DNA of 64,000 nt, taken from the NCBI GenBank assembly GCA_017306155.1, contig JAFKJB010000005.1, positions 62,001-126,000 on the forward strand, written 5' to 3'. The notes beneath the pieces were generated by a model. That model saw only the letters and a program-made list of their open reading frames with translations. It was not told the DNA's origin and made no database searches. Numbering within the stretch: the stretch's first letter is position 1; each line of letters starts with the position of its first letter. This document shows, in pieces, positions 41,584-46,444 of this stretch. The DNA comes from Nitrosospira multiformis (lineage in GTDB: Bacteria; Pseudomonadota; Gammaproteobacteria; Burkholderiales; Nitrosomonadaceae). Both the position numbers and the translations under genes were made by a program.

Positions 41584-43824
41584 ATGCTGGCTTACGCAGA
41601 TACCAAACCTGACTACATAGCGGTAAATCGGGATATCAAATTTATTGAAATACGCCATCTCAACGGACCCAATATCTGGAGTGTTCGTCCCGTACTTGAA
41701 GCTATTGTCGATATCGGGGAACTCGAGGATTTTCCCTCCGATACAATCCCGGGTTTCCATGAACGCCTGTCTTCCTGGCTTCCTTCGCTCATCGAGCATC
41801 GCTGCAGCTATGGAGAGCGGGGCGGATTTCTGCGCCGTTTAAAGGAAGGTACCTGGACTGGCCATATTCTCGAGCACGTTACGCTTGAACTGCAAAATCT
41901 GGCAGGAATGCCCGGCGGCTTTGGCCGGGCGCGCGAAACATCGCTGCGCGGTGTCTACAAGGTGGCGGTGAGCGCGTGGCATGAGGATGTCACACGCAGT
42001 GCTCTCGCGACAGCAAGGGAATTGCTGCTTGCGGCAATGGATTATTCGCCGGGGGACGAACCTTACGATGTGAGAGGCGCTGTTGCGCATCTGCGGGAGA
42101 TGGTCGATTTGCTGTGGCTGGGGCCATCCACTGCCTGCATTGTGGAAGCTGCCGCCAGCCGCAACATTCCGGCGATTCGTCTTCTTGCCAGGGGAAATCT
42201 GGTACAACTGGGTTATGGTATTCGAAGCCAGCGCATCTGGACAGCCGAAACGGACCGCACTCCCGCAATTGCAGAAAGCATCTCGAGAGATAAGGATCTG
42301 ACCAAGACGCTGCTGCAATCGTGTGGCATCGCCATCCCGGAGGGCCGCATCGTTCACAGTGCTGAGGATGCATGGAAAGCGGCGCAGGAAATCGGTCTGC
42401 CGGTGGTGATCAAACCGTGTGACGGAAATCATGGACGCGGCGTTTTTATCGAGTTGAGTAAACGTGAAGAAATCGAGTCCGCTTACAGGGTAGCTCTGGA
42501 AGAGGGTAGCGGTGTCCTGGTCGAGGGTTATGTTCCCGGTACGGAACACCGCCTGCTGGTGGTCGGAGGCCGTCTCGTCGCCGCAAGCAGGGGAGATTCC
42601 GTTTCGGTTGCAGGTGATGGGATTTCCACCATAAACGAACTGATCCAGCAGCAGATCAACTCTGATCCCCGCCGGGGGGAAAGTGAAGAGTATCCGCTGA
42701 ATCCGGTCAGTGTGGATGGGATAACGATAATGCAACTCCTCCGGCAAGGCTTCACCGCGGATTCAATACCGCTTGCAGGACAGGAAATCATCGTTCAGCG
42801 TAATGGTAACCATGCTTTCGATGTTACCGACGAGGTGCATCCCAGTACGGCGGCGGCAGCTTCGCTGGCCGCGCGCGTTGTCGGCCTGGATATTGCGGGC
42901 ATCGATCTTGTCGCCACGGATATCGCGCGACCGCTGGCAGAGCAGGGCGGCGCCATTGTCGAAGTCAATGCCGGACCCGGTTTGCTGATGCACATCAAGC
43001 CTGCTATTGGCACCCCGCGTCCGGTCGGTGAAGCGATCGTCGAGCATCTCTTCCCAAGCCATGAGGATGGCCGCATTCCGATTGTAGGCATTACCGGCAG
43101 TTATGGTACAACCAACGTGGCGCATCTCATTGCTCAACTGCTCGCGCTATCCGGAAAGCAGACGGGTCTGGCATGCAGCGACGGCTTTTATCTTGACCGC
43201 AGGCAAGTGAAAAAAGGTGATCAGGCCAACTGGAGGACAGCGCGCAACATTCTCATGAACCGGTCAATCGAGGCAGCGGTTTTTGAAAACGGCAGCGACA
43301 GCATGCTGCGCGAGGGATTGGCCTACGATGGTTGTCATATCGGCATCGTTACCAATGTGGAGTTGACCCGTCATTATGGAAAATATCTCGAAACTCCCAA
43401 GCAAGTCTTCGACCTGTTGCGTACCCAAGTGGATGTCGTCGTGCCCGCAGGTGCTGCAGTACTCAACGCCAGGGAGCCCATGCTGATGGAAATGGCCCCG
43501 CTATGCAATGGGGAAATTATTTACTTCAGTCTGGATCCCGATCTTCCGGTAATAAGGGAGCATTGTCTACACGGCACCGCCGGTATCAACGGCGTTCAAG
43601 GCAAACGGGCGGTAACGGTTCGAAACGGAGAAATTTTCCTTGTTGACGGGTCCGGTGAACTGCTACTGAGTAAATTGAACGATGTTCCGGTTACATGTAA
43701 CGGGCAGGATGTTTTGGAGGTCGAAAACATACTCGCGGCGGTAGCCGCCGCATGGTCACTCGGCATCGACCTGGCCGTCATACGCGCGGGGATTGGGAAC
43801 TTTCACGCGTTTAACAAGGCGTAA
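41584..43824 (+). CDS. cphA': Cyanophycin synthetase homologue with decayed Mur-ligase half
   Basis: A 746-residue CphA homologue. The N domain is well kept, with GHILEHVTLELQNLAG (His94, His98, Glu102). The ATP-grasp domain (about 230-490) looks intact: VVIKPCDGNHGRGV, EGYVPGTEHRLLVVG, VEVNAGPGLLMH. The Mur-ligase P-loop is not: GITGSYGTTN (502-511) replaces the usual GTNGKTTT, so the ATP lysine is absent, and the C-terminal Mur domain is missing. It may only add aspartate, or act like CphA2 enzymes that polymerise Asp-Arg dipeptides. It is followed by cphA after 49 bp. Confidence 0.88.
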   Translation: MLAYADTKPDYIAVNRDIKFIEIRHLNGPNIWSVRPVLEAIVDIGELEDFPSDTIPGFHERLSSWLPSLIEHRCSYGERGGFLRRLKEGTWTGHILEHVTLELQNLAGMPGGFGRARETSLRGVYKVAVSAWHEDVTRSALATARELLLAAMDYSPGDEPYDVRGAVAHLREMVDLLWLGPSTACIVEAAASRNIPAIRLLARGNLVQLGYGIRSQRIWTAETDRTPAIAESISRDKDLTKTLLQSCGIAIPEGRIVHSAEDAWKAAQEIGLPVVIKPCDGNHGRGVFIELSKREEIESAYRVALEEGSGVLVEGYVPGTEHRLLVVGGRLVAASRGDSVSVAGDGISTINELIQQQINSDPRRGESEEYPLNPVSVDGITIMQLLRQGFTADSIPLAGQEIIVQRNGNHAFDVTDEVHPSTAAAASLAARVVGLDIAGIDLVATDIARPLAEQGGAIVEVNAGPGLLMHIKPAIGTPRPVGEAIVEHLFPSHEDGRIPIVGITGSYGTTNVAHLIAQLLALSGKQTGLACSDGFYLDRRQVKKGDQANWRTARNILMNRSIEAAVFENGSDSMLREGLAYDGCHIGIVTNVELTRHYGKYLETPKQVFDLLRTQVDVVVPAGAAVLNAREPMLMEMAPLCNGEIIYFSLDPDLPVIREHCLHGTAGINGVQGKRAVTVRNGEIFLVDGSGELLLSKLNDVPVTCNGQDVLEVENILAAVAAAWSLGIDLAVIRAGIGNFHAFNKA

Positions 43825-43873
43825 AAAGAATCAGTAAACCTCTGCTGAATAAGAAACGCTAGGAGAACTGCCG

Positions 43874-46444
43874 ATGCAAGTATCACGTCTCCGCGCTTTG
43901 CGCGGACCCAATTTGTGGAGCCGTCAGACAGCCATAGAGGCAGTCGTTTCCTGTAACACTCCTGAATCCCTGCCGGGGGGCATGCCGGGTTTTCTGGATC
44001 GCCTGCACGCGCGATTCCCGCAAATCGATTTGCTTCGAGTCGCATCCTGCCCTGAAGCGGAAATGCTTGCGCATGCGCTCGAGCGCGCTGCACTCGGACT
44101 GGAAGTACAGGTGGGTTGTCCGGTGGCTTTCAGCAAGATTGCTCCGACGCTTGAAGTCGGCGTCTACCAGGTCGTCGTGGAATACAGCGAAGAAGCGGTT
44201 GGCAGGCTCGCCTTTGGTCTGGCACAAGCCCTGTGCAGCGCAGCTATCGAAGATACCCCTTTCAATCTGGCCGATGCCCTGCAGCACCTGCATGGGCTTT
44301 ATGAGGACATACGCCTGGGGCCGAGCACCGGTTCAGTAGTGCGGGCAGCGGTTGCCCGCGGCATTCCCTTCCACCGGCTGACTGATGGCAGCATGGTGCA
44401 ATTCGGCTGGGGTAGCAGGCAGCGGCGTATTCAGGCTGCGGAAACCTGCCTCACCAGCCTGGTAGCCGAGTCGATTGCGCAGGACAAAGAGCTTACCCGA
44501 TTCTTGCTGGATGCTGCCGGCGTACCCGTCACACCCGGAAGACCGGTTACAAGTGCAGAGGACGCATGGGTGGCGACCTGTGAAATAGGCAGTCCTGTCG
44601 TCGTCAAGCCGCAGGACGGCAATCAGGGAAGGGGAGTTCGTGTGAACCTTGTGAGCCGCGAACAGGTGGAGGCAGCGTACACCGTTGCAGTTGAAGTCAC
44701 TGGAAAAGTAATGGTTGAGCGCTATATTCCCGGTTACGACTATCGCATGCTGGTAGTCGGCAGCAAGCTGGTTGCCGCAGCACGCCGGGAGCCCCCCCAG
44801 GTTGCAGGGGATGGGATTCATACGGTCGGAGAATTGGTGGAACAGATCAACAGGGATCCGCGACGTGGTGAAGGGCATGCCAACGCGCTTACAAAAATCC
44901 ATTTGGATGAAATCGCTCTTGCCCACCTTGCAGCTCAGGGTCTGACATCGGAATCCGTACCCCCGGCGGCCATGCGAGTAGTCCTCAGGAATAATGCGAA
45001 TCTTTCGACCGGCGGAACGGCGGCAGATGTTACCGACGAGGTTCATCCGGAATTTGCGGCGCGTATGGGCGAAGCTGCACAGATGATCGGCCTTGATATC
45101 TGTGGAGTGGATGTTGTCTGCGAAAGCGTGTCCAGGCCTTTGGAGGGACAAGGCGCTATTATCGAAATCAATGCAGCGCCGGGTTTGCGCATGCACTTGC
45201 AGCCTTCCTTCGGTAAAGGGCGGGCGGTGGGAGAGGCGATCATTGCAAACATGTTCAAGAAGGGTGATGATGCCCGTATCCCGGTAGTGGCGGTAACAGG
45301 CACCAACGGCAAAACGACTACCGTCAGGCTGATTGCCAACATTCTTGGTTGTCAAGGCCTGCGTGTCGGCATGACAAGCACGGATGGTGTCTATATCGAG
45401 GGACAACGTATCGACACCGGCGATTGCAGCGGTCCGAAGAGTGCAAGAAAAGTGCTTCTTCATCCGGATGTGGACGCAGCAGTGCTTGAAACTGCGAGAG
45501 GCGGCCTGCTGCGCGAAGGATTGGCTTTCGATCGTTGTGATGTCGCAGTAGTTACCAACATTGGAGTCGGTGACCACCTCGGTCTTTCCTACATCAATAC
45601 CGTGGAAGACCTGACCGCCGTCAAACGCATCATCGTGCAGAATGTGAAGCCCGGAACGGGTGTGGCAGTGCTGAACGCGGCTGATCCGTTTGTGGCAGGC
45701 ATGGCCGTTCATTGTCCTGGCAAGGTCACTTTTTTTGCGCGCAATCCGGATAATCCCGTCATGGCGAAGCATCGCGCTCAACGTAAACGTGTTGTTTATG
45801 TCGATGGCGACGCAATCATCGCTGCGGAAGGCAATTTCGAATATCGCCTTCCGTTTGCAGGCATCCCCGTGACACAGAACGGTGCGATCGCATTCCAGAT
45901 TGAAAACGTCATGGCGGCCGTCGCAGCGGGTTGGGCGCTCGGTCTTGATTGGCAGATCATTCGCGGTGGTCTCGCGAATTTTGTCAGCGACATGCAAACT
46001 GCCCCTGGCCGCTTCAATTTCTTCACTCATCGGGGTGCTACACTTATTGCTGACTACGGCCATAATGTCGATGCAATTCGCGCACTGGTAAATGCGATCG
46101 ACAAGATTCCGGCGAAACGGCGTTCTGTGGTTATCAGCGGTGCTGGCGATCGACGCGATGAGGATATTCGGCGGCAGACGGAAATATTGGGAGATGCTTT
46201 CGATGAAGTGGTGCTTTATCAGGATCAGTGCCAGCGCGGACGCGCGAATGGGGAGATATTGAGCCTGCTGCGACAGGGCCTGGAAAAGGCGAAACGCACC
46301 CGGAAGATCAAGGAAATCTACGGGGAGTTTGGGGCCATTGATGCCGCATTTGATGATCTGAAAGAGGGAGAATTATGTCTTATTCTCATCGATCAGGTGG
46401 ATGAAGCGCTGGGATACATCACTAAGCGGGTGGTGGCTGGCTGA
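43874..46444 (+). CDS. cphA: Cyanophycin synthetase
   Basis: An 856-residue cyanophycin synthetase that makes multi-L-arginyl-poly-L-aspartate. The ATP-grasp domain (VVVKPQDGNQGRGV, VERYIPGYDYRMLVVG, IEINAAPGLRMH) adds Asp and the Mur-ligase domain, with intact P-loop GTNGKTTT (476-483), adds Arg; ISGAGDRRDEDIRRQ belongs to its C-terminal part. The N domain is shorter and the His-x3-His-x3-Glu seen in the upstream paralogue reads HALERAALGLE here, so that site appears lost. AGGAG is upstream of the ATG. Confidence 0.94.
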   Translation: MQVSRLRALRGPNLWSRQTAIEAVVSCNTPESLPGGMPGFLDRLHARFPQIDLLRVASCPEAEMLAHALERAALGLEVQVGCPVAFSKIAPTLEVGVYQVVVEYSEEAVGRLAFGLAQALCSAAIEDTPFNLADALQHLHGLYEDIRLGPSTGSVVRAAVARGIPFHRLTDGSMVQFGWGSRQRRIQAAETCLTSLVAESIAQDKELTRFLLDAAGVPVTPGRPVTSAEDAWVATCEIGSPVVVKPQDGNQGRGVRVNLVSREQVEAAYTVAVEVTGKVMVERYIPGYDYRMLVVGSKLVAAARREPPQVAGDGIHTVGELVEQINRDPRRGEGHANALTKIHLDEIALAHLAAQGLTSESVPPAAMRVVLRNNANLSTGGTAADVTDEVHPEFAARMGEAAQMIGLDICGVDVVCESVSRPLEGQGAIIEINAAPGLRMHLQPSFGKGRAVGEAIIANMFKKGDDARIPVVAVTGTNGKTTTVRLIANILGCQGLRVGMTSTDGVYIEGQRIDTGDCSGPKSARKVLLHPDVDAAVLETARGGLLREGLAFDRCDVAVVTNIGVGDHLGLSYINTVEDLTAVKRIIVQNVKPGTGVAVLNAADPFVAGMAVHCPGKVTFFARNPDNPVMAKHRAQRKRVVYVDGDAIIAAEGNFEYRLPFAGIPVTQNGAIAFQIENVMAAVAAGWALGLDWQIIRGGLANFVSDMQTAPGRFNFFTHRGATLIADYGHNVDAIRALVNAIDKIPAKRRSVVISGAGDRRDEDIRRQTEILGDAFDEVVLYQDQCQRGRANGEILSLLRQGLEKAKRTRKIKEIYGEFGAIDAAFDDLKEGELCLILIDQVDEALGYITKRVVAG

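Follow-up and report, generated by a model that had tools for sequence, protein, structure and literature searches.

The window, a stretch of 64,000 nucleotides from Nitrosospira multiformis, carries two adjacent paralogues of the cyanophycin synthetase CphA1, here called A' and A. Upstream of them, on the same strand, lie genes for an ABC transporter and a DUF1854 protein (Table 1). The transporter has an exporter-type layout and is MsbA-related. Coordinates and lengths of the pair (746 and 856 residues) agree with the initial annotation, and its landmarks were all recovered in place: His94, His98, Glu102 and GSYGTT from residue 505 in A', GTNGKTTT from residue 476 and HALERAALGLE from residue 67 in A. 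Both proteins pass the cut-off of the NCBIfam model NF010623 'cyanophycin synthetase'. The equivalog TIGR02068 (cut-off 850 bits) is passed by A with 953.6 bits and failed by A' with 735. Beyond A' and A, a search of the own genome yielded nothing CphA-like that exceeded weak similarity to Mur or ATP-grasp proteins. Among the best 80 of 579 confirmed loci, the named relatives nearest to A' belong mostly to the Nitrosomonadaceae, so an ammonia oxidiser of this family is the probable host.

Table 1. Features of the cphA pair and its upstream neighbours (positions in the window).
Feature	Position	Strand	Remarks
ABC transporter, 780 aa	38382..40724	+	NF052233 'cyanophycin metabolism-associated', 1397 bits vs cut-off 880
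DUF1854 protein, 159 aa	40721..41200	+	NF052234 'cyanophycin metabolism-associated', 226.9 bits vs cut-off 150
A', CphA1 paralogue, 746 aa	41584..43824	+	N-domain peptidase motif intact; aspartate pocket and Mur motif lost; without Mlid
A' N-domain site, residues 72-102	41797..41889	+	H72, C74, F82, R85, H94, E97, H98, E102
A' ATP-grasp (G) domain, residues ~179-495	42118..43068	+	ATP residues kept; aspartate-binding ones replaced or deleted
A' Mur core (Mcore), residues 496-746	43069..43821	+	P-loop GSYGTT; R596 at D585 position
A, CphA1 paralogue, 856 aa	43874..46444	+	G and Mur domains complete except His267->Gln251; N-domain site lost
A degenerate N-domain motif HALERAALGLE, residues 67-77	44072..44104	+	C59, R70 and H83 equivalents absent
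A Mur P-loop GTNGKTTT, residues 476-483	45299..45322	+	

Functional residues were compared with those of SuCphA1 (Synechocystis UTEX2470) and TeCphA1 (Trichodesmium). The N site of SuCphA1 consists of C59, H79, E82 and H83, together with H57, F67, R70 and E87; the published primer-site pattern is Cx19HxxEH, present in 83% of nr70 CphA1 sequences and so not universal; S603 and E607 of the M domain contact the polymer; H267A inactivates the G domain and D585A/H586A the M domain (PMC9262961). G-domain residues of TeCphA1 are E215, K220, K261, H267, R309, R323, N394, S396, D431, E450 and R458, and those of its Mur ligase are the P-loop 495-501 with K499 and T500, T522, E558, and R731 and H748 of Mlid; module limits are from the same source (PMC9427784). 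For the functional residues checked, the stated identity holds in both reference chains. N452 was added as a functional residue of ATP-grasp enzymes.

The order-level survey comprised 399 genomes drawn evenly from the window's order. A match at E <= 1e-60 was found in 147 (two matches in 132, one in 15) and none in 252; 11 genomes carry a stand-alone CphA1. The 120 regions fetched (L094-L213) came from 100 order-level places with a known A', belonging to the 132 two-match genomes, and from part of the family-search places; 116 gave a usable pair, making 117 pairs with the window. Left out were L110 (A in two frames), L112 and L167 (contig ends) and L212 (both genes broken); L213 was retained despite an inner stretch absent from its A'. 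Nineteen stand-alone CphA1s were compared, with L224, L225 and L227 excluded as other protein or split gene. A named set, the best 80 of 579 confirmed loci, holds 80 A' but 78 A (L231 and L258 have no A in the stretch); it possibly overlaps the fetched set and hence is not independent of it. This set spans Cupriavidus, Ralstonia, Achromobacter, Bordetella, Pandoraea, Herbaspirillum, Accumulibacter, Zoogloea, Gallionella and Thiobacillus; its counts below refer to these best 80 of 579. At class level an A'-type match (E below 1e-200) occurs in four of 274 genomes, the window's own among them, and one damaged A' is additional to these four (G091). Family relatives with neither A' nor A exist, for example G275. 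In one genome A' and A are both broken, as if lost together (G328, L212).

The N-domain peptidase site of the window's A' is complete (C74, H94, E97, H98). It is intact in 117/117 A', window and 116 fetched pairs taken together; the pattern Cx19HxxEH is present in the same 117 and in 80/80 named A' (best 80 of 579). Among the primer-site residues listed in the initial annotation, His94 and His98 were right and Glu102 corresponds to the supporting residue E87; Cys74 and the general base Glu97 had been missed. Polymer contacts of the site partly differ, E90 being replaced by Asn in 96/117. The ATP-grasp domain of A' had been called intact, which is wrong: its aspartate pocket is gone, though the ATP residues stay. 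ATP and acyl-phosphate residues are complete in the window (K237, K277, H283, R323, D441, E460 and N462, equivalent to reference K220, K261, H267, R309, D431, E450 and N452) and kept in 114/117 A', His267 in 112/117. In the aspartate pocket, reference R323 is replaced by Gly337 and R458 by Leu468, and S396 is deleted with its loop (after N409). None of the three occurs in any of the 117 A', nor in the named set (0/80 of the best 80 of 579). The replacement pocket is itself conserved, with Gly at 323 in 111/117, Leu at 458 in 113/117 and Asn at 188 in 99%. Both A' and A have lost E215. The observation of the pair in the initial annotation is, taken together, partly confirmed.

In the Mur part of the window's A', T509 occupies the P-loop Lys position and R596 that of D585. 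The C-terminal Mur part, correctly recorded earlier as absent, is Mlid; nothing aligned from about Te position 723 onward. The Mur motif is kept in 6/117 A' and in 14/80 named A' (best 80 of 579), and because of the latter the loss is read as secondary. Of the 117 A', 45 retain Lys499 followed by Thr or Ser at 500, so P-loop decay is not general; the P-loop state shows at least 16 changes on a quick tree. Conservation reaches 97% or more in only 14/236 columns of Mcore, including 603 and 607, where R613 and D617 of A' are invariant in 117/117. Columns 603 and 607 correspond to the two Mur residues touching the polymer at the N site in SuCphA1 (PMC9262961). Compared with a complete three-site CphA1, A' possesses the N site and lacks the Asp residues, the Mur motif with Mlid and the TIGR02068 score. 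Assignment of A' to CphA2 was ruled out by sequence score (199 and 188 bits vs 516 for CphA1).

In A the N site is intact in 0/117, and the N motif is found in 0/78 named A (best 80 of 579); the window's A retains H67 and E70, with the Cys and second His absent. R323, S396 and R458 are present in 117/117 and 78/78, as is the Mur motif (named A again from the best 80 of 579). Mur motif and Mlid, which together with the missing N site are expected of a primer-dependent CphA1, are both found in A. ATP residues are kept in 117/117 apart from the His267 position, at which His is kept in four and Gln stands in the other 113, as well as in 78/78 named A (best 80 of 579). The window's A has Gln251 there; its G-domain ATP and aspartate residues are otherwise all present. 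Position 251 is a conserved change at a catalytic position, accounted for by none of the explanations offered.

Among the stand-alone CphA1s 18/19 keep all sites; the exception, L019, sits on a long branch. A' and A form sister clades, paralogues of CphA1 that arose by a single old duplication. A' stands first, with both genes on one strand, in 116/116 analysed pairs, and a median of 43 bases separates the A' stop from the start of the aligned A (range -10 to 276, fetched pairs). Values of dN/dS against seven relatives, given where computable and with dS mostly saturated, are 0.05-0.11 for A' and 0.10-0.27 for A in the N domain, 0.09-0.16 for A' and 0.04-0.09 for A in the Mur part, 0.05-0.10 for the A' G domain and 0.07-0.11 for A' overall. 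Both genes are under purifying selection. The complementarity of the two proteins proposed in the initial annotation is supported, and the co-occurrence in other genomes that it suggested checking is seen in the 116 fetched pairs. Chance is ruled out by conservation over 117 pairs, and assembly error is rejected on the same pattern.

DUF1854 follows the pair closely. It is over cut-off in 132/399 order genomes: 130/132 with two matches, 2/15 with one match (G401, G718), 0/252 with none; it is found in 0/11 stand-alone CphA1 genomes. At class level 5/274 are over cut-off (the window's own, G107, G224, G213 and G091), all with the pair locus, and three more genomes of the 274 have weak matches. 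DUF1854 and ABC genes both lie in the fetched stretch in 106/116 pairs, 16 on the same strand as in the window and 90 divergent; in one of the 106 stretches the ABC match is placed inside the pair. The ABC gene alone is present in two pairs and neither gene in eight, one of these with only 419 bases of flank. A cytoplasmic storage polymer hardly accounts for such a near-constant tie to DUF1854 and an MsbA-related ABC protein.

Cyanophycinase (TIGR02069) is over cut-off in 11/11 stand-alone, 10/132 two-match and 6/252 other genomes (stand-alone vs two-match, Fisher p 4e-11, not corrected for kinship). Nine of the 11 stand-alone genomes carry it no more than 2.5 kb from cphA; the ten two-match genomes that have it show no copy on the pair's contig closer than 180 kb. 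In a six-frame search of the own genome, A' included, TIGR02069 gave no match, and it is absent from the 25 best of 46 NCBIfam families matching A' (up to E 0.001). The own genome carries an Asparaginase_2 gene. At stand-alone loci (L214; genomes G412, G564, G494 and others) a gene for a protein of ~580 aa with a Mur-ligase-like stretch was seen within ~1 kb after cphA, followed by the cyanophycinase. Proteins of ~630 aa with a CphA-like ATP-grasp domain occur at L309 (G230) and L310 (G298); the closest PDB chains of the L310 protein are CphA1, not CphA2, and G298 also has an A'/A pair.

On balance A' is probably a stand-alone N-domain endo-cyanophycinase that makes primers and A a primer-dependent synthetase, separated after tandem duplication. 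Residue-by-residue equivalence with SuCphA1 and TeCphA1 makes these the most likely catalytic roles. An ancestral three-site CphA1 would have undergone tandem duplication in an ancestor of this order, after which the copies would have shared out its work. A' would be a zinc-type endo-cyanophycinase whose cuts yield short (beta-Asp-Arg)n pieces that can serve as primers; it may also release stored polymer. Its ATP-grasp domain would be unable to hold aspartate any more, and what keeps its Mur core may mainly be a role in lining the polymer cleft. A would be the builder, adding Asp by its G domain and Arg by its Mur domain, incapable of producing its own primers. The interpretation in the initial annotation is partly supported. 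Its suggestion that the first protein might make primers is the best reading, since A' has the pair's only primer-site motif. The alternative there, that A' adds Asp, is rejected on the pocket residues, and the statement that neither protein suffices alone does not hold for synthesis: apart from His267->Gln, both synthetic sites are present in A by itself, and TmCphA1, which lacks the N motif, is an active, primer-dependent CphA1 (PMC9262961). Contact between A' and A is not required, because an isolated N domain supplied in trans renders TmCphA1 primer-independent (PMC9262961).

Several observations speak against this division into primer maker and builder. Gln replaces His267 in A, while H267A kills the G domain of SuCphA1 (PMC9262961). 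The conserved ATP residues of A' and the low dN/dS of its G domain exceed the needs of a pure scaffold, and a pure storage role leaves the constant ABC transporter and DUF1854 unaccounted for. The homologues of R. eutropha H16 gave no cyanophycin when overexpressed in their own host or expressed in E. coli (review PMC8560796), and none was observed in the wild type (PMC11362209); both sources cite Adames 2013 for the R. eutropha result. Least explained are the ATP machinery of A', His267->Gln in A and the tie to the transporter; these three points give ground for other readings, one of export included.

A' could mainly be the missing degrading enzyme, its endo-cleavage mobilising cyanophycin instead of CphB and primers arising as a side effect. 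The distribution of cyanophycinase over stand-alone and two-match genomes fits this, as do its absence from matches in the own genome, where the Asparaginase_2 product is available for a possible last step, and its recognition in 2.8% of 903 beta-proteobacterial CphA1 genomes (PMC10206079). The reading is nevertheless rather unlikely: cleavage by the SuCphA1 N domain is several-fold slower than polymerisation by the same enzyme (PMC9262961), and with A' encoded alongside the builder, degradation would be on whenever synthesis is on. The kept ATP and acyl-phosphate residues, the conservation of the remodelled pocket and the dN/dS of the A' G domain would suit an A' that, besides its N site, has remained an ATP-dependent ligase, its aspartate replaced by a new acceptor such as a beta-Asp-Arg dipeptide or another amine. 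ATP binding may, however, be purely structural or regulatory, and to our knowledge no enzyme has the A' pocket, CphA2 residues lying outside the comparison; such a ligase is considered unlikely.

It is quite unlikely, in turn, that the four genes form a dedicated system with a product other than ordinary storage cyanophycin, in which A would build, A' would cut and join a non-aspartate partner to chain ends through its remodelled ATP-grasp domain, and the MsbA-like ABC protein would export oligopeptides with the help of DUF1854. An A' without catalysis, either a relic or a regulatory subunit, would agree with the decay of its Mur domain in many lineages and with the genome in which both genes are broken; the invariance of its N site in all 117 and in all 80 named A' (best 80 of 579), and its overall dN/dS where computable, make this improbable. 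A split in which A' adds Asp and A adds Arg draws on His267, kept by A' and replaced by Gln in A. It is highly improbable, with R323, S396 and R458 absent from every A' and present in every A of the 117 pairs and likewise divided in the named set (0/80 vs 78/78, best 80 of 579).

Fold and domain order of the pair are those of SuCphA1 and TeCphA1; A' has their N site and A their Asp and Mur residues. The differences are that three sites in one protein are here split over two, that A has Gln at 267 and that A' is mostly without Mlid. TmCphA1 (Tatumella morbirosei) resembles A, by sequence, in having no N motif, and it needs primers (PMC9262961); it differs in having His at 267 by alignment, and no N-active partner gene is mentioned for it in the accessible text of that paper. 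A CphA2 polymerises beta-Asp-Arg dipeptides in its G domain. CphA2 (PDB 7ta5, 8fxh), an enzyme with a single active site (PMC10206079), shares with most A' the lack of a working Mur ligase. No beta-proteobacterial CphA was found among the PDB matches listed. A' may act on the same polymer as the cyanophycinases CphB/CphE (TIGR02069), which belong to another family; A' is a paralogue of CphA, and its N site is metallopeptidase-like.

Tandem cphA copies are already known (PMC10687191, PMC5178258). The 'Group 1' cluster of activated-sludge bacteria has two neighbouring cphA genes, an ABC transporter gene and no cphB (PMC10687191), and all of this applies to the window. Neighbouring 'CphA1, CphA2' without cyanophycinase, described from Sideroxydans (PMC5178258), are likewise similar to the present pair. 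These loci are very probably of the same type as A'/A; the copies are not assigned different active sites in the accessible text of either paper. Both papers cite Krehenbrink 2002 and Fuser and Steinbuchel 2007. For Achromobacter a cyanophycin synthesis pathway is reported, with two copies unmentioned (PMC12509546). Among the papers listed in the literature search, which covered few subscription papers, none was recognised as describing a division of active sites between cphA copies.

If the division holds, two proteins would share the synthesis of cyanophycin in many bacteria of a large order, nitrifiers, Cupriavidus and Accumulibacter among them, and primer-making and polymer-building would be tunable apart, which is impossible with a single CphA1. 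Counts of the N motif over all 'CphA1' may credit synthetases with a primer independence that resides on a protein without an aspartate site, a caution that bears on the published 83% (PMC9262961). The pair would further offer a testable answer to the puzzle of beta-proteobacteria that have cphA but no recognisable cyanophycinase (PMC10206079, PMC5178258), and perhaps also to the question why the R. eutropha homologues yielded no polymer (PMC8560796).
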